Below are positions 18,547 to 23,902 of a stretch of DNA of 64,000 bases, one piece after another (within the stretch, counting starts at the first letter, position 1; the number at the start of each line of letters is the position of its first letter). Source of the stretch: Candidatus Koribacter versatilis Ellin345 (lineage in GTDB: Bacteria > Acidobacteriota > Terriglobia > Terriglobales > Acidobacteriaceae); assembly GCF_000014005.1 (NCBI RefSeq), contig NC_008009.1, positions 4,836,001 through 4,900,000 on the forward strand, given 5' to 3'. The translations under genes and the position numbers were made by a program. The notes under the pieces are model-generated. The model had not been told where the DNA came from. It saw only the letters and a program-made list of their open reading frames with translations, and made no database searches.

Positions 18547-19332
18547 TCAAAACCGCAGCGACAAACAGCTCAATCCGCCGTCCATCTTCTCGAATTCCGA
18601 CATCTCCAGCAGCAGCGGCTTAAACGCGCGGCACTCCAACTCGGCGGTTAGCTTCGGAAATCCCTCTGCCACCAGTACGCAATCGTTCACGCGCACGCAG
18701 TTGGCGCCGTAGTGTTCGTCAGGCGAAACGCGAATTAATTCATATCCCTGGAACTGCGGGAGATCCGCCATTTCTTCCCACACCACCAATGTGTTCTCGC
18801 CGATGTAGGCAATGCCGCTCTTGAGGTGCAGGATGGATTGCATTTCGCGGATATCAACGACCGACGCTGTGTAGCCGAGCGCCTCGAGAAACATGCCGAG
18901 CTGCTGCACACCCTCTTCATTGCTTCTCAGCGAAAGACCGAGAAAGAAATGCCGTCCCACCTCGCAGATGTCGCCGCCATCGAGTGTCCCGGGCTCATTA
19001 ATCGAGAGCACCGAGGGAAACCCACCGCCACGGATTTCCGCTGCGATCGCCTCCACTTCACCCGCGCGCGATGCCGCGCCGGGCCGCGTGAGGATCGCTG
19101 CCTCCGCTGTCAGCACTGCCGCGTCTTCCACAAACGTCGAATCCGGATATCGCAAGTCCGCCGGGAGGACAGTCACCTGCAGCCCGCACTCTCGCAGCGC
19201 ATCGCAGTAGCGTGCGTGCTGTTGAAAAGCGAGTTCGTAGTTGGGTGCGCCGAGTTCGGCCGTGGTCAGCCCCTCGGCAAAATTGCTCCCCGGAATTCGA
19301 ACGATTGCCTTTGTGAAATGCGTAGCGGCCAT
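18547..19332 (-). CDS. Dimethylarginine dimethylaminohydrolase family
   Basis: 261 residues, typical for DDAH. Family motifs are PDSTFVEDAAVLT, GTLDGGDICEVG with GLSLRSNEEG, GANCVRVND and, at the C-terminus, the catalytic-cysteine segment EFEKMDGGLSCLSL (Cys256). DDAH hydrolyses N-omega-methylated arginines to citrulline and methylamines; the fold is shared with arginine deiminase and amidinotransferases. The substrate here is therefore assigned by family only. The gene is divergent from a GNAT acetyltransferase. The 29 bases between the two start codons are almost exactly a perfect palindrome, which leaves no room for a normal ribosome binding site. Confidence 0.88.
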   Translation of the reverse strand: MAATHFTKAIVRIPGSNFAEGLTTAELGAPNYELAFQQHARYCDALRECGLQVTVLPADLRYPDSTFVEDAAVLTAEAAILTRPGAASRAGEVEAIAAEIRGGGFPSVLSINEPGTLDGGDICEVGRHFFLGLSLRSNEEGVQQLGMFLEALGYTASVVDIREMQSILHLKSGIAYIGENTLVVWEEMADLPQFQGYELIRVSPDEHYGANCVRVNDCVLVAEGFPKLTAELECRAFKPLLLEMSEFEKMDGGLSCLSLRF

Positions 19333-19333
19333 G

Positions 19334-19362
19334 TGATTTAGAATTTTGGAAATTCTAAATCA
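19334..19362. promoter_or_regulatory. 29-base perfect palindrome filling the divergent intergenic gap
   Basis: TGATTTAGAATTT (19334-19346), spacer TGG, and AAATTCTAAATCA (19350-19362) are exact inverse complements. The start codons of the DDAH gene (19332) and the GNAT gene (19362) flank it. It is AT-rich in a GC-rich region. The likely role is a bidirectional operator or control element; no Shine-Dalgarno sequence fits in the gap on either strand. Confidence 0.7.
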
Positions 19363-19808
19363 TGCGCCTTGAACCACTCAGTATCGCCGCCGCACCCGCG
19401 CTCCTCGCGATGATGCGCCTCATGCAAATCGACGACCCATGGTCTGTCCCGTTCGACGAAGCGCGCGCACTCGCCGCCGTCGAACTCATGCTTCGAAATC
19501 CGAATTTCGGACTGGCGTGGTTTCTCGAGCACGATGGGCGTCACATCGGGTACATCGTCCTGTCGTGGGACTACAGCCTCGAGTATGGCGGCCGCAACGC
19601 GTGGGTCGATGAGTTCTTCATCTTCTCCGAATTTCGCGGGAAAGGCTTCGGAGCGCAGGCGCTTGAACTATTCGAGCAGGAAGCCCTCGCGGCCGGTGCA
19701 ACCGCGATTCACCTCGGCGTGAATCCCGGCAATCCAGCCGAGCACCTCTATCGCCGCAGCGGTTTCGTCGGACATCAGCGTTACCTGATGACCAAGTTCC
19801 TGAGTTAA
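19362..19808 (+). CDS. GNAT-family N-acetyltransferase
   Basis: 148 residues with the GNAT fold: a beta-strand pair (IGYIVLSWDYSLEYGG), then WVDEFFIFSEFRGKGFGAQALELFEQEA. Here EFRGKGFGAQ is the acetyl-CoA loop (R/Q-x-x-G-x-G/A). The end (HLGVNPGNPAEHLYRRSGFVGHQRYLMTKFL) is the typical GNAT motif B. It transfers an acetyl group from acetyl-CoA to an amine; the acceptor is unknown. It is divergent from DDAH, with the shared palindrome as control region. The next gene, TraB/GumN family, starts 16 bases after the stop. Confidence 0.9.
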   Translation: MRLEPLSIAAAPALLAMMRLMQIDDPWSVPFDEARALAAVELMLRNPNFGLAWFLEHDGRHIGYIVLSWDYSLEYGGRNAWVDEFFIFSEFRGKGFGAQALELFEQEALAAGATAIHLGVNPGNPAEHLYRRSGFVGHQRYLMTKFLS

Positions 19809-19824
19809 GAGTACGATTCTGTCT

Positions 19825-20688
19825 GTGCGGAGACTATCGCGTCAGCTCGTCCTCGTTCTTCTCATCGCGTTCGCGCTGCCGTGTTTCGCCGCACATCGCA
19901 AGTTCCTGATGTGGAAGGTGACTTCGCCGACGGCGACCGTTTACCTTGTCGGCTCGATCCACCTCGCGGACCCTTCGATCTATCCACTTCCATCAATGGT
20001 GGAGAAAGCTTTCGCCGATTCGCAAGTCCTAGCCGTCGAAGCTGACGTGAGCAACTTCAATCTCGACGAAGCCGTAGGGCTGCTCGGCGAATACGGCATG
20101 TACACTGATGGCGACTCGCTCTCCAACCACGTCTCGCGCGAAACCAACGCCGACCTCGACGCCTTCTGCACCAAGCACCAGCTACCGCGCGAAATGCTCG
20201 ACACCATGAAGCCCTGGATGGTCGCGCTCACCGTCGAAGCCATGGCCGCGCAGAGTTCTGGCTTCGATCCCAGCGCCGGTATCGACATGCACTTTCTCAA
20301 CTCGGCCAACGGCAAACGCGTGGACCAGCTCGAGTCGGTCGAGTTCCAGTTCAAGTTGCTCGCCTCCGCCAGTGACAGCGAGCAGTCGCAGTTTCTCGCC
20401 TCGGCGCTGAAAGAATCCGGACAGATCGGCGACACCGAGCGCGCCTACGAAAACGGCGATATCAATGCGCTCAGCTCCGAGATTTCGCGCCAGGAACCGC
20501 GCTCCTACTACCAGCGCCTGCTCGACGATCGCAATCCCGCGATGACCGACAAAGTTGCCGCGTATCTCGGTGGCCACGAAACCGCGTTTGTCGTGGTCGG
20601 GATCGCCCACGTAATCGGCGACCACGGCATTGCGAAATCGCTGGAGCGCAAAGGCTACAAGGTCGAACAGAACACTTACGATTGGTAG
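19825..20688 (+). CDS. TraB/GumN family protein, exported
   Basis: 287 residues from GTG. There is a signal peptide (LVLVLLIAFALPCFAAHRK), then the TraB/GumN signature: KVTSPTATVYLVGSIHLADPSIYPLP at the start and TAFVVVGIAHVIGDHGIAKSLERKGYKVE at the end. The two paired His/Glu-containing motifs (GSIH and GIAH) are characteristic of the family, proposed to be metal-dependent peptidases related to Tiki. A role in E. coli GumN-like proteins is not established. The stop abuts the stop of the opposite-strand phosphoesterase (20689), with no space between. Confidence 0.88.
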   Translation: MRRLSRQLVLVLLIAFALPCFAAHRKFLMWKVTSPTATVYLVGSIHLADPSIYPLPSMVEKAFADSQVLAVEADVSNFNLDEAVGLLGEYGMYTDGDSLSNHVSRETNADLDAFCTKHQLPREMLDTMKPWMVALTVEAMAAQSSGFDPSAGIDMHFLNSANGKRVDQLESVEFQFKLLASASDSEQSQFLASALKESGQIGDTERAYENGDINALSSEISRQEPRSYYQRLLDDRNPAMTDKVAAYLGGHETAFVVVGIAHVIGDHGIAKSLERKGYKVEQNTYDW

Positions 20689-21879
20689 CTACGGCACCGT
20701 GACATAGATCGTGCTCTTGAAATAAATTCCGTCATAGGCCTGCACCGTAATGCGCCGCGTTCCAGACGCAAGCGTCAGAGTGGTATCAACCTTGCCGCCC
20801 ATCACCTCGTACTTCTTCACGCCATCAATGTAAACCTGCGTGAAGCTCACCGGCTTCGAGTCGTTCGCCACCGCGCTCACTTCTACGGCTGTGGTTCCCA
20901 TCGTCGTTCCATTCGCAGGGGAGCAGATCGTTACCGTCTGGTTCGTGCCGGTGCCCGTGCAGCCAGTTGTCGTCGCCGAGAAGAAGTCCGTCATGAGGGG
21001 TGCCGTAGCCGCGGCGCCCGGAGCGCTGTTGATGCCAAGCGCCATCAGCGCCGTCCGCAGCACGCTCGGATGCTGGTAGAACGTGCTCGACTGGAATCCC
21101 TTCTTCACGTTCGGCCCAATCAATACCGTTGCAACGTGCCCGCCGCCGCCGTTTTCCGGAAGCTTCGGACAGCTCGCCAATGGCGCGCAGTCGGAGTCCA
21201 CCGATTCGTCGAACGTAATGATTAACAGTCCATCGCCGCCGGGCTGGAATGCCGGACTGCTTAGCAATTGCGGCAGGTTCGCCTTCAGCCACGCGTCCAT
21301 CGTCGGTAGACCAGCGTTGTGTCCGTTATGCGTGCCATTCGGACCGATCCATCCAAAGTTCGGGAGGTCGTTATTCGCGATGTCGGTTGCGAACTGAGTG
21401 AACGGAACCATGTTGTTCGCCTGCGAGCTGTTCACCACGTCCGATAAATAGGAAAACGGATTGTGGTTCTTCTCGTACGGCTCAACCGTTCCACCCGTGT
21501 ACCCCTCGGAAGGAATGCTCTCCTCATACGCCTTCCAGGTCTTGCCCGCCGAGAGCATTTGCCGCACCACGTTGTCCACGTTGAATACTGCGGTGGTGCC
21601 GTCGTTCAGTGTCAGGTACTTGCCGGTGGTGATCCAGAAATAATTGGGCAGCGAGTAGTGGCTGTTCGCGTCGTAATTCGTCGCCAGCCCATATTGCTGG
21701 ATCAGGGAATTCAGGTACGGCATGTTCGGACTGCCGACCACCTGGCTGTAACTGTGGTTCTCCTCCATAAGAACGAATACATGGTTGGAGGAAGGAACTT
21801 GCGCTGAACTAATCGCCGCGAAACTCAATACGCACACCGCTACCGCCAGGCAAAACTGCTTGAGTCTGTCCGTAAACAC
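20689..21879 (-). CDS. Secreted phosphoesterase (phospholipase C/acid phosphatase type) with Ig-like C-terminus
   Basis: 396 residues from GTG with a signal peptide (FCLAVAVCVLSFAAISSAQ). The catalytic part (about 28-300) fits the phosphoesterase family PF04185: HVFVLMEENHSYSQVVG contains the EENHS metal and nucleophile region, followed by NYFWITTGKY, LPNFGWIGPNGTHNGHN, LLIITFDES and GGHVATVLIGPNVKKGF. Known members hydrolyse phosphate esters or phospholipids outside the cytoplasm. From about residue 308 there is the same Ig-like module (VTICSPANG, QVYIDGVKKYE, RRITVQAYD) as in two other secreted proteins of this window. Confidence 0.87.
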   Translation of the reverse strand: MFTDRLKQFCLAVAVCVLSFAAISSAQVPSSNHVFVLMEENHSYSQVVGSPNMPYLNSLIQQYGLATNYDANSHYSLPNYFWITTGKYLTLNDGTTAVFNVDNVVRQMLSAGKTWKAYEESIPSEGYTGGTVEPYEKNHNPFSYLSDVVNSSQANNMVPFTQFATDIANNDLPNFGWIGPNGTHNGHNAGLPTMDAWLKANLPQLLSSPAFQPGGDGLLIITFDESVDSDCAPLASCPKLPENGGGGHVATVLIGPNVKKGFQSSTFYQHPSVLRTALMALGINSAPGAAATAPLMTDFFSATTTGCTGTGTNQTVTICSPANGTTMGTTAVEVSAVANDSKPVSFTQVYIDGVKKYEVMGGKVDTTLTLASGTRRITVQAYDGIYFKSTIYVTVP

Positions 21880-22136: not shown

Positions 22137-23396
22137 GTGTTTACCACCGAGGCAACCAGGTTCGGCCCGGAGGCGCGGCCGGACGAACCCGAGCCCGCGC
22201 GCGGATTCCTTCACCGCCTGCGCGACACTGTGCCCGGAATCATTGCCGGCGCGGCCGATCTCGACCCTGCGGCCGTTCTAACCGCCACGGTTGTCGGCGC
22301 CACGTTTGGACTCTCCATTGCCTGGGTGGTGCTCGTCAGCTTCCCTGTCCTGAAGACGGTCTTCGCCGTCTCCTCGCGCATCGGGCGCGACACCCGACGC
22401 GGCCTCATCGAACTTGTCCGCATCCGCTACGGCAGCGGGCGTGCCAAGCTCATGGCGCTCGGCATGGTCTGCGTTAACCTCGCCATGGTCATCGGCGACA
22501 TCTACGCCGTCTCCGACGCCTTCTCGCTGATCCTCCTCCAGCGGCGCGCCATGTTCATCGCTGTTGTCGGCTTCGTCATTTGGTATTTCCTTATTGTCAG
22601 CGACTACAAGAAGGTCACGAGCACGCTCGGCACGTTGACGTTAGTCTTGCTCGCGTACGTTCTCGCCGCACATCGCGCCACGGATTCCTACGTCGGCCTC
22701 GCGAAAGGTGTGTTCCTTCCGCACATCCAGATGTCGGGCGCTTACTTCATGGCGGTGATCGCACTTTTTGGGTCGCTGCTCACGCCGGATGTCATCGTCT
22801 GGCAAACCAGCACCAAGCGCGACCTGCCGACCGGAGTTGCTAACGCTCATTATTCGGAGTCGAACGCGGGCACCATCGTCGCGTGCCTGATCTCGTTTTG
22901 CGTGATCATCTGCGCTGCGCGCATTCATGTTGCCGCCCCATCGCAGGTGACGACTCGCACCGCCGCGCAGGCACTAAGCGTTCTCGGCCAAGCCGGTCCG
23001 GTGATTTTCTCGCTCGGAATCATCGGATCAGGACTCGTCGCCCTTCCGCTGATCGTAGGTTCGCTTTGCTTTAGCGTTGCCGAAGCCTTCGGGTGGAAGT
23101 CGCGCCTCAGTCGCGCTCCGTGGGAAGCGACGCGCTTCTACACTTTGATCTCCGCAGTGGTGTTCATCGCCGTCGCCGTGGATCTCTTCGGCATCAACGT
23201 GGTCACAGTACTCTACTGGTCGCAGCTCTTTGCGGGCGTCATGACGATCCCAATTCTGCACTACATGCGACGGCTGGGAGACGATCCTGCGATCGTCACC
23301 GTGCGCAATACGCATTCGGAGAACCGCTGGTTGCTGGGCGCAATCATCGTGACTATCATCGCGAACCTGGCGTTTCTCTATACGCAGATCTGGTGA
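22137..23396 (+). CDS. Nramp-family divalent metal transporter (divergent)
   Basis: 419 residues from GTG, with about ten hydrophobic segments. TM1 contains GAADLDPAAVLTATVVGATFGLSIAWVVL, aligned with the metal-site region of Nramp (DPGN in Mn/Fe transporters). Here DP is kept but the Gly-Asn is changed to Ala-Ala, as in Nramp-related subgroups, so metal specificity is unsure. TM-like runs continue to the end (LLGAIIVTIIANLAFLYTQIW). It lies 74 bases before a PerR-like regulator, and the group continues with AhpC and AhpD. Manganese uptake as part of peroxide defence is a reasonable inference. Confidence 0.82.
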   Translation: MFTTEATRFGPEARPDEPEPARGFLHRLRDTVPGIIAGAADLDPAAVLTATVVGATFGLSIAWVVLVSFPVLKTVFAVSSRIGRDTRRGLIELVRIRYGSGRAKLMALGMVCVNLAMVIGDIYAVSDAFSLILLQRRAMFIAVVGFVIWYFLIVSDYKKVTSTLGTLTLVLLAYVLAAHRATDSYVGLAKGVFLPHIQMSGAYFMAVIALFGSLLTPDVIVWQTSTKRDLPTGVANAHYSESNAGTIVACLISFCVIICAARIHVAAPSQVTTRTAAQALSVLGQAGPVIFSLGIIGSGLVALPLIVGSLCFSVAEAFGWKSRLSRAPWEATRFYTLISAVVFIAVAVDLFGINVVTVLYWSQLFAGVMTIPILHYMRRLGDDPAIVTVRNTHSENRWLLGAIIVTIIANLAFLYTQIW

Positions 23397-23445: not shown

Positions 23446-23460
23446 TGATAAGGATTATCA
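23446..23460. promoter_or_regulatory. Putative PerR/Fur-type operator
   Basis: TGATAA (23446-23451), GGA and TTATCA (23455-23460) form a perfect 15-base palindrome, 10 bases before the start codon of the Fur/PerR-family gene; a further GATAAG follows. It resembles PerR/Fur boxes, which are AT-rich inverted repeats around such half-sites. It predicts autoregulation and peroxide control of the AhpC-AhpD genes. Confidence 0.6.
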
Positions 23461-23470
23461 TCCGATAAGT

Positions 23471-23902
23471 ATGCCAAAGGAGAAACTGGATTTTGACGGC
23501 CTCTGCCGCGAGCGCCATCTTGCGGCTACGCATCAGCGCCGCATCATCTTCCAGGCTGTGACTGCGGCCCCGGGGCACTACTCGCCCGAGGAGATTTACG
23601 AGGTCGTCCGCAAACAAATCCCTTCCATCTCCGTGGCTACGATTTATAAGAACCTGAAGACGTTCGTTGAGGCCGGAATCCTGCACGAAGTTAGCCCGCA
23701 CCATGGCAGCCTGCGTGTGGACCCCACCCTGACGCCCCACCACCACCTCGTTTGCCGTAAGTGCAAATCCATAACGGACATCGACGCAAAATTCCTTGAT
23801 CCGGTACGTCTCCGGCGTGCTCCCAAGGGATTTAAGATCGAGCAGTTCGCTGTCGATATCCTCGGAACCTGCAGTAAATGCGCAAAGCAGTCAGCGCACT
23901 AA
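23471..23902 (+). CDS. perR: PerR-type Fur-family peroxide regulator
   Basis: 143 residues from ATG 23471; the upstream in-frame extension overlaps the Nramp gene. A winged helix spans about 20-75 (HQRRIIFQAV ... SVATIYKNLKTFVEAGILHEV). Both zinc CxxC pairs are present (Cys95/98 and Cys134/137). The metal-sensing set is PerR-like: His36, Asp84 in RVDPT (the position that is Asp in PerR but Glu in Fur), His90-92 and Asp103. PerR represses peroxide genes until H2O2 oxidises its iron-bound histidines. The next gene is ahpC, 34 bases downstream. Confidence 0.88.
   Translation: MPKEKLDFDGLCRERHLAATHQRRIIFQAVTAAPGHYSPEEIYEVVRKQIPSISVATIYKNLKTFVEAGILHEVSPHHGSLRVDPTLTPHHHLVCRKCKSITDIDAKFLDPVRLRRAPKGFKIEQFAVDILGTCSKCAKQSAH

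Follow-up and report, generated by a model that had tools for sequence, protein, structure and literature searches.

A perfect inverted repeat lies between divergent DDAH and GNAT genes

The locus lies in a stretch of 64,000 nucleotides from Candidatus Koribacter versatilis Ellin345 (hereafter the window, meaning the whole stretch of DNA that was analysed). Positions 18547–19332 encode, on the minus strand, a DDAH-like (dimethylargininase-type) hydrolase of 261 amino acids that matched PF19420 (4.5e-6) and PF02274 (5.3e-6); its match to NF045658 reached 1.5e-74 but, at 251 bits, stayed below the cut-off of 450. Diverging from it on the plus strand is the gene for a GNAT-family acetyltransferase of 148 amino acids (19362–19808; PF00583, 4.9e-15). 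Sixteen nucleotides past GNAT, on the same strand, begins a gene for a TraB/PrgY/GumN-family protein (19825–20688; PF01963, 1.2e-67), possibly co-transcribed with GNAT.

The start codon of DDAH occupies 19332–19330 (minus strand) and that of GNAT 19362–19364 (plus strand). Twelve non-self matches to the GNAT protein were obtained in a phylum search, nine of which begin at query residues 2–14 and three at residues 28–40. The DDAH reading frame of a congener opens with MFQHAIVR, and the window protein reads MAATHFTKAIVR at the same place. Judged by these match starts and by the congener frame, the starts of both genes look plausible. The earlier note had reported that both genes lack a Shine-Dalgarno (SD) site in the gap and, in agreement, no SD-like site was found before the DDAH start or before the GNAT start.

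The gap between the two start codons is 29 bases long (19333–19361), and an inverted repeat (19334–19362) covers 28 of them and, beyond the gap, the first base, A, of the GNAT ATG. Its left arm, TGATTTAGAATTT (19334–19346), and its right arm, AAATTCTAAATCA (19350–19362), are 100% complementary, with 13 of 13 positions paired, and enclose the spacer TGG (19347–19349). The spacer is asymmetric, with T at 19347 unpaired with G at 19349, and the feature is hence an inverted repeat of 13 bp per arm around a 3-base spacer rather than an unbroken palindrome. An inverted repeat is thus present where the earlier note had placed it, well beyond chance. The observation reported there is confirmed, with perfect arms and an asymmetric spacer. 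As single-stranded DNA, the repeat folds with -9.4 kcal/mol on either strand, and none of 200 shuffles folded as well. A scan of the window allowing up to three mismatches returned one match, the repeat itself (expected 0.00 from 100 shuffles), and no second copy was found at up to three mismatches in the 5,650,368-bp genome.

Long perfect repeats are rare but not unique in this genome

The earlier note had called long perfect palindromes between start codons rare. We collected perfect repeats with arms of at least 13 and loops of at most 10 from a 1.264-Mb sample, made up of the window (chosen for its repeat) and 60 stretches of the same genome. Only 12 were present, which bears out their rarity, yet three of them, the DDAH/GNAT repeat included, lie in divergent gaps. 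Seven of the 12 lie between convergent genes, like terminators, and ten have a GC content of 48–67%. The other two are AT-rich (21% and 14% GC): the DDAH/GNAT repeat and a repeat at L166 11742–11770. Both are in divergent gaps according to the gene caller, although the frame of a neighbouring gene, if taken at its longest possible extent, would include the L166 repeat.

The repeat is absent from the relatives examined

Two of the loci compared, L005 and L103, are the same sequence from the same genome (G001) and count as one congener, not two. In this congener DDAH and TraB directly adjoin each other in divergent orientation, and GNAT and the palindrome are both absent. The arrangement further downstream also varies: in the window a phosphoesterase gene (20689–21879) lies between TraB and a gene at 22137–23396 that we take to be Nramp-like, and at L005 TraB and the Nramp-like gene are only ~100 bp apart. 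Outside the source genome, the best-scoring GNAT match had 28% identity among 60 relatives and 42% identity in 395 other genomes of the phylum.

The palindrome core was not found, at up to two mismatches, in any of 149 other genomes of the family. Upstream of 26 of 80 DDAH loci (L002–L029 except for L023 and for L006, which is at the edge of a contig) there was nothing like the repeat, the longest perfect arms being 9, 8, and then at most 6. The expectation, set beforehand in the earlier note, that relatives would keep the palindrome is therefore contradicted by the congener, though this genome lacks GNAT too, and by the 149 family genomes. Together with the 26 DDAH loci, these absences suggest that the repeat is local and probably young.

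TANAAT-type hexamers are biased in strand and position near gene starts

Each arm of the repeat contains one TAGAAT, which the earlier note does not mention, so that two opposed hexamers, 7 bp apart, share one short stretch between divergent genes. The plus-strand copy (19339–19344) is proposed as the -10 box of GNAT, with 17 nt between its end and the GNAT ATG; the minus-strand copy (19352–19357) is proposed as the -10 box of DDAH, with 19 nt between its end and the DDAH ATG.

The genome-wide statistics of TANAAT were compiled with a simple and crude gene caller of our own, which gave 942 genes (869 with upstream sequence) and 689 gaps. Within 30 nt before the starts at these 689 gaps, TANAAT occurred 36 times in the forward and 4 times in the reverse orientation (34 and 2 when the DDAH/GNAT gap is excluded), compared with 55 and 13 within 60 nt and 89 and 45 within 150 nt. 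TAGAAT alone gave 10 forward and 3 reverse occurrences within 30 nt (8 and 1 excluding the DDAH/GNAT gap). The corresponding counts were 14 and 7 within 60 nt, and 26 and 19 within 150 nt, so that the bias of TAGAAT is confined to short distances. The upstream-to-total ratio of TAGAAT was 0.147 (14 of 94 occurrences), the highest among 60 letter arrangements, which had a median of 0.024. An earlier, smaller sample (464 kb, 383 genes), in which an SD term entered the choice of start, showed the same trend, with 17 forward and 3 reverse TANAAT within 40 nt.

Among the 67 TANAAT found within 80 nt of a start, 19 lay at 4–11 nt and 8 at 16–19 nt. An SD-like site preceded 2 of the 36 genes with TANAAT at up to 30 nt, as against 51 of 169 genes that have five consecutive A/T without a TANAAT and 215 of 689 overall; a box this close to the start codon can itself leave no room for an SD site. 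Judged by the statistics of strand bias, position and SD-lessness, a TANAAT-type hexamer appears to behave like a -10 box in the source genome.

We counted 142 divergent gaps, three of which, the DDAH/GNAT gap included, had TANAAT near both starts. TAGAAT followed by ATTCTA within 30 nt occurred at three places in the genome, namely the DDAH/GNAT gap, L135 and L136. At L135, TAGAATCATTCT (1499–1513) is directly 5' of the ATG of a minus-strand gene that we take to be LpxD-like; TAGAAT is 6 nt from the start, and this gene is probably leaderless. We also noted a divergent gap of 25 bp at L173 (604–628); the GTTATAAC at its centre may be a -10 box common to both directions.

A candidate divergent promoter with face-to-face -10 boxes

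We lean, with modest confidence, towards the reading that the repeat would serve mainly as a divergent (bidirectional) promoter of compact form, its two -10 boxes facing each other. The TAGAAT of each arm would be directed at the gene beyond the opposite arm. If a spacing of 7 nt between box and start is assumed, polymerase in one orientation would begin at ~19351 and transcribe GNAT, perhaps with TraB behind it, and polymerase bound in the other would begin at ~19345 and transcribe DDAH. The predicted starts would be ~6 bp apart, with SD-less leaders of ~11 nt for GNAT and ~13 nt for DDAH. We infer that two polymerase complexes placed in this way would overlap almost fully, so that only one of the genes could be started at a time. 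The shared control of both genes that the earlier note implies would hold on this reading.

Such leaders, predicted from boxes ending 17 and 19 nt upstream of the two ATGs, do not favour strictly leaderless transcription. We rejected strict leaderless starts on inspection by eye, since no TA-type box lies 5–8 nt before either ATG. A scan of 19200–19500 for two-hexamer sigma-70 promoters found none (0.2 expected), suggesting that a -35 box is either missing or unlike TTGACA.

Several observations, the failure to find a -35 box among them, speak against the divergent promoter, as does the crudeness of the gene caller. The boxes are farther out than the commonest TANAAT distances, and the symmetry covers 7 bp per arm outside the hexamer, which is more than a pair of -10 boxes requires. 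TAGAAT alone also loses its strand bias farther upstream, as the counts within 150 nt show. Lastly, the predicted start separation of ~6 bp is not among the separations of 10, 18 and 23 bp that are common in known bidirectional promoters.

An established arrangement in E. coli is the divergent promoter whose -10 regions overlap and at which polymerase bound in one orientation excludes the other (PMC12825309). The bidirectional promoters with symmetric -10 elements described by Warman, Grainger and colleagues commonly have starts 10, 18 or 23 bp apart, according to the same source (PMC12825309). The DDAH/GNAT gap resembles the promoters reported there in that a short AT-rich stretch would serve two divergent genes with opposed candidate -10 boxes and, as predicted here, exclusive binding of polymerase. 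It differs from them in having two separate hexamers 7 bp apart instead of -10 regions common to both directions, in its closer predicted starts, and in a symmetry that extends over 29 bp. TA-led genes, which are leaderless or have short leaders, were reported in all three Acidobacteria genomes covered (PMC3160421), and the TANAAT pattern of the source genome agrees with such genes. The two genes here are like them in having a -10-like box near the start codon and no SD site; unlike the TA-led genes of that report, with a box ~10 nt out, they have boxes at 17 and 19 nt and a predicted short leader. The gap is thus probably an unusually neat and young local case of a known arrangement, not a new system. 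If this reading is right, the repeat would be a very small natural divergent promoter, in which 29 bp serve two genes without an SD site, and it would be an example of how a gained gene can be wired in via promoter symmetry. It would also strengthen the case that short-leader genes of the source acidobacterium use TANAAT as their -10 box.

A regulator-binding site as an alternative

A possible but more doubtful explanation is that the palindrome is the binding site of a dimeric regulator, encoded elsewhere, which would control both genes. The full 13-bp symmetry and the position in a divergent gap are what such an operator would have, and the palindrome overlies the proposed core promoters, as an operator would. 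The repeat also shares an AT-rich, perfectly inverted sequence over core promoters with palindromic operators in divergent gaps (e.g., Fur boxes), yet differs from these in having no recognised consensus, no second copy, no adjoining regulator and no conservation. The L166 repeat of the same genome, TAAATGAAAATGAATTTCATTTTCATTTA, precedes a gene that presumably encodes an FTR1 iron permease and looks to us like a Fur box, which suggests that operators of this kind exist in the source genome.

We searched for a regulon and rejected it: the repeat is single at up to three mismatches, and a relaxed core occurred at three places, compared with five for the reversed control. The absence of the palindrome from the congener also argues against an operator, and none of five neighbouring genes scanned in Pfam was a regulator. 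An adjoining regulator gene is not essential for operators in general, and a regulator with a single target would escape a test by copy number and conservation. The proposal in the earlier note that a repressor bound to the repeat would block both genes therefore receives no direct support from copy number, conservation or gene neighbourhood, although it is compatible with the divergent promoter, since an operator could sit atop both -10 boxes.

A Fur-type gene (~23471–23902; PF01475 match at about 23519–23857) lies 4 kb away. Just 5' of it, at 23446–23460 of the window, is the inverted repeat TGATAAGGATTATCA, which we assume is possibly an autoregulatory PerR/Fur-type box; a peroxiredoxin-like gene lies downstream of the Fur-family gene. 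As this repeat differs from the one in the DDAH/GNAT gap, a link between the latter and the Fur-type gene was dropped, and this counts further against the operator.

Origin of the symmetry

Returning to the divergent promoter, the congener offers a hint as to how its symmetry may have arisen. In the congener, TTAGAAT lies 20 nt before the DDAH ATG, compared with 19 nt in the window, and one of 869 sampled genes has TTAGAAT at that distance; this also speaks for the divergent promoter. It may be, then, that the old promoter lies in the arm carrying the DDAH box and that the other arm is its inverted copy, a suggestion only, drawn from one relative. Speculatively, the gain of GNAT between DDAH and TraB would have come with a template switch that copied the old -10 region of DDAH in inverted form, creating the GNAT promoter and the symmetry together. 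That the promoter of a new gene was made in one step by inverted copying of its neighbour's -10 region, with the two genes competing for one polymerase, seems to us unlikely on present evidence.

Template switching is reported to yield inverted copies in other systems (PMC8794818; PMC7202029). The same event could also have made the two arms identical as a mutational by-product, leaving a symmetry without function of its own. The youth and uniqueness of the repeat fit this explanation, as do the perfect hairpins that template switching is reported to make in those systems (PMC8794818; PMC7202029). Against it, the one relative shows no intermediate, and its seed repeat (GAAT/ATTC) is too short to carry much meaning; we consider this explanation quite improbable.

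A chance origin is scarcely credible: divergent gaps number several hundred in the whole genome (142 were counted in 1.26 of 5.65 Mb), and rare patterns should turn up somewhere among them, yet mononucleotide shuffling of the gap and its surroundings (34 bases) yielded no perfect arm longer than 11 (reached in 3 of 20,000 shuffles), and a first-order model of the genome's intergenic DNA gave no perfect arm of at least 13 (loop of at most 10) in 1.2 Mb, compared with 54,477 bases of real divergent gap in our sample.
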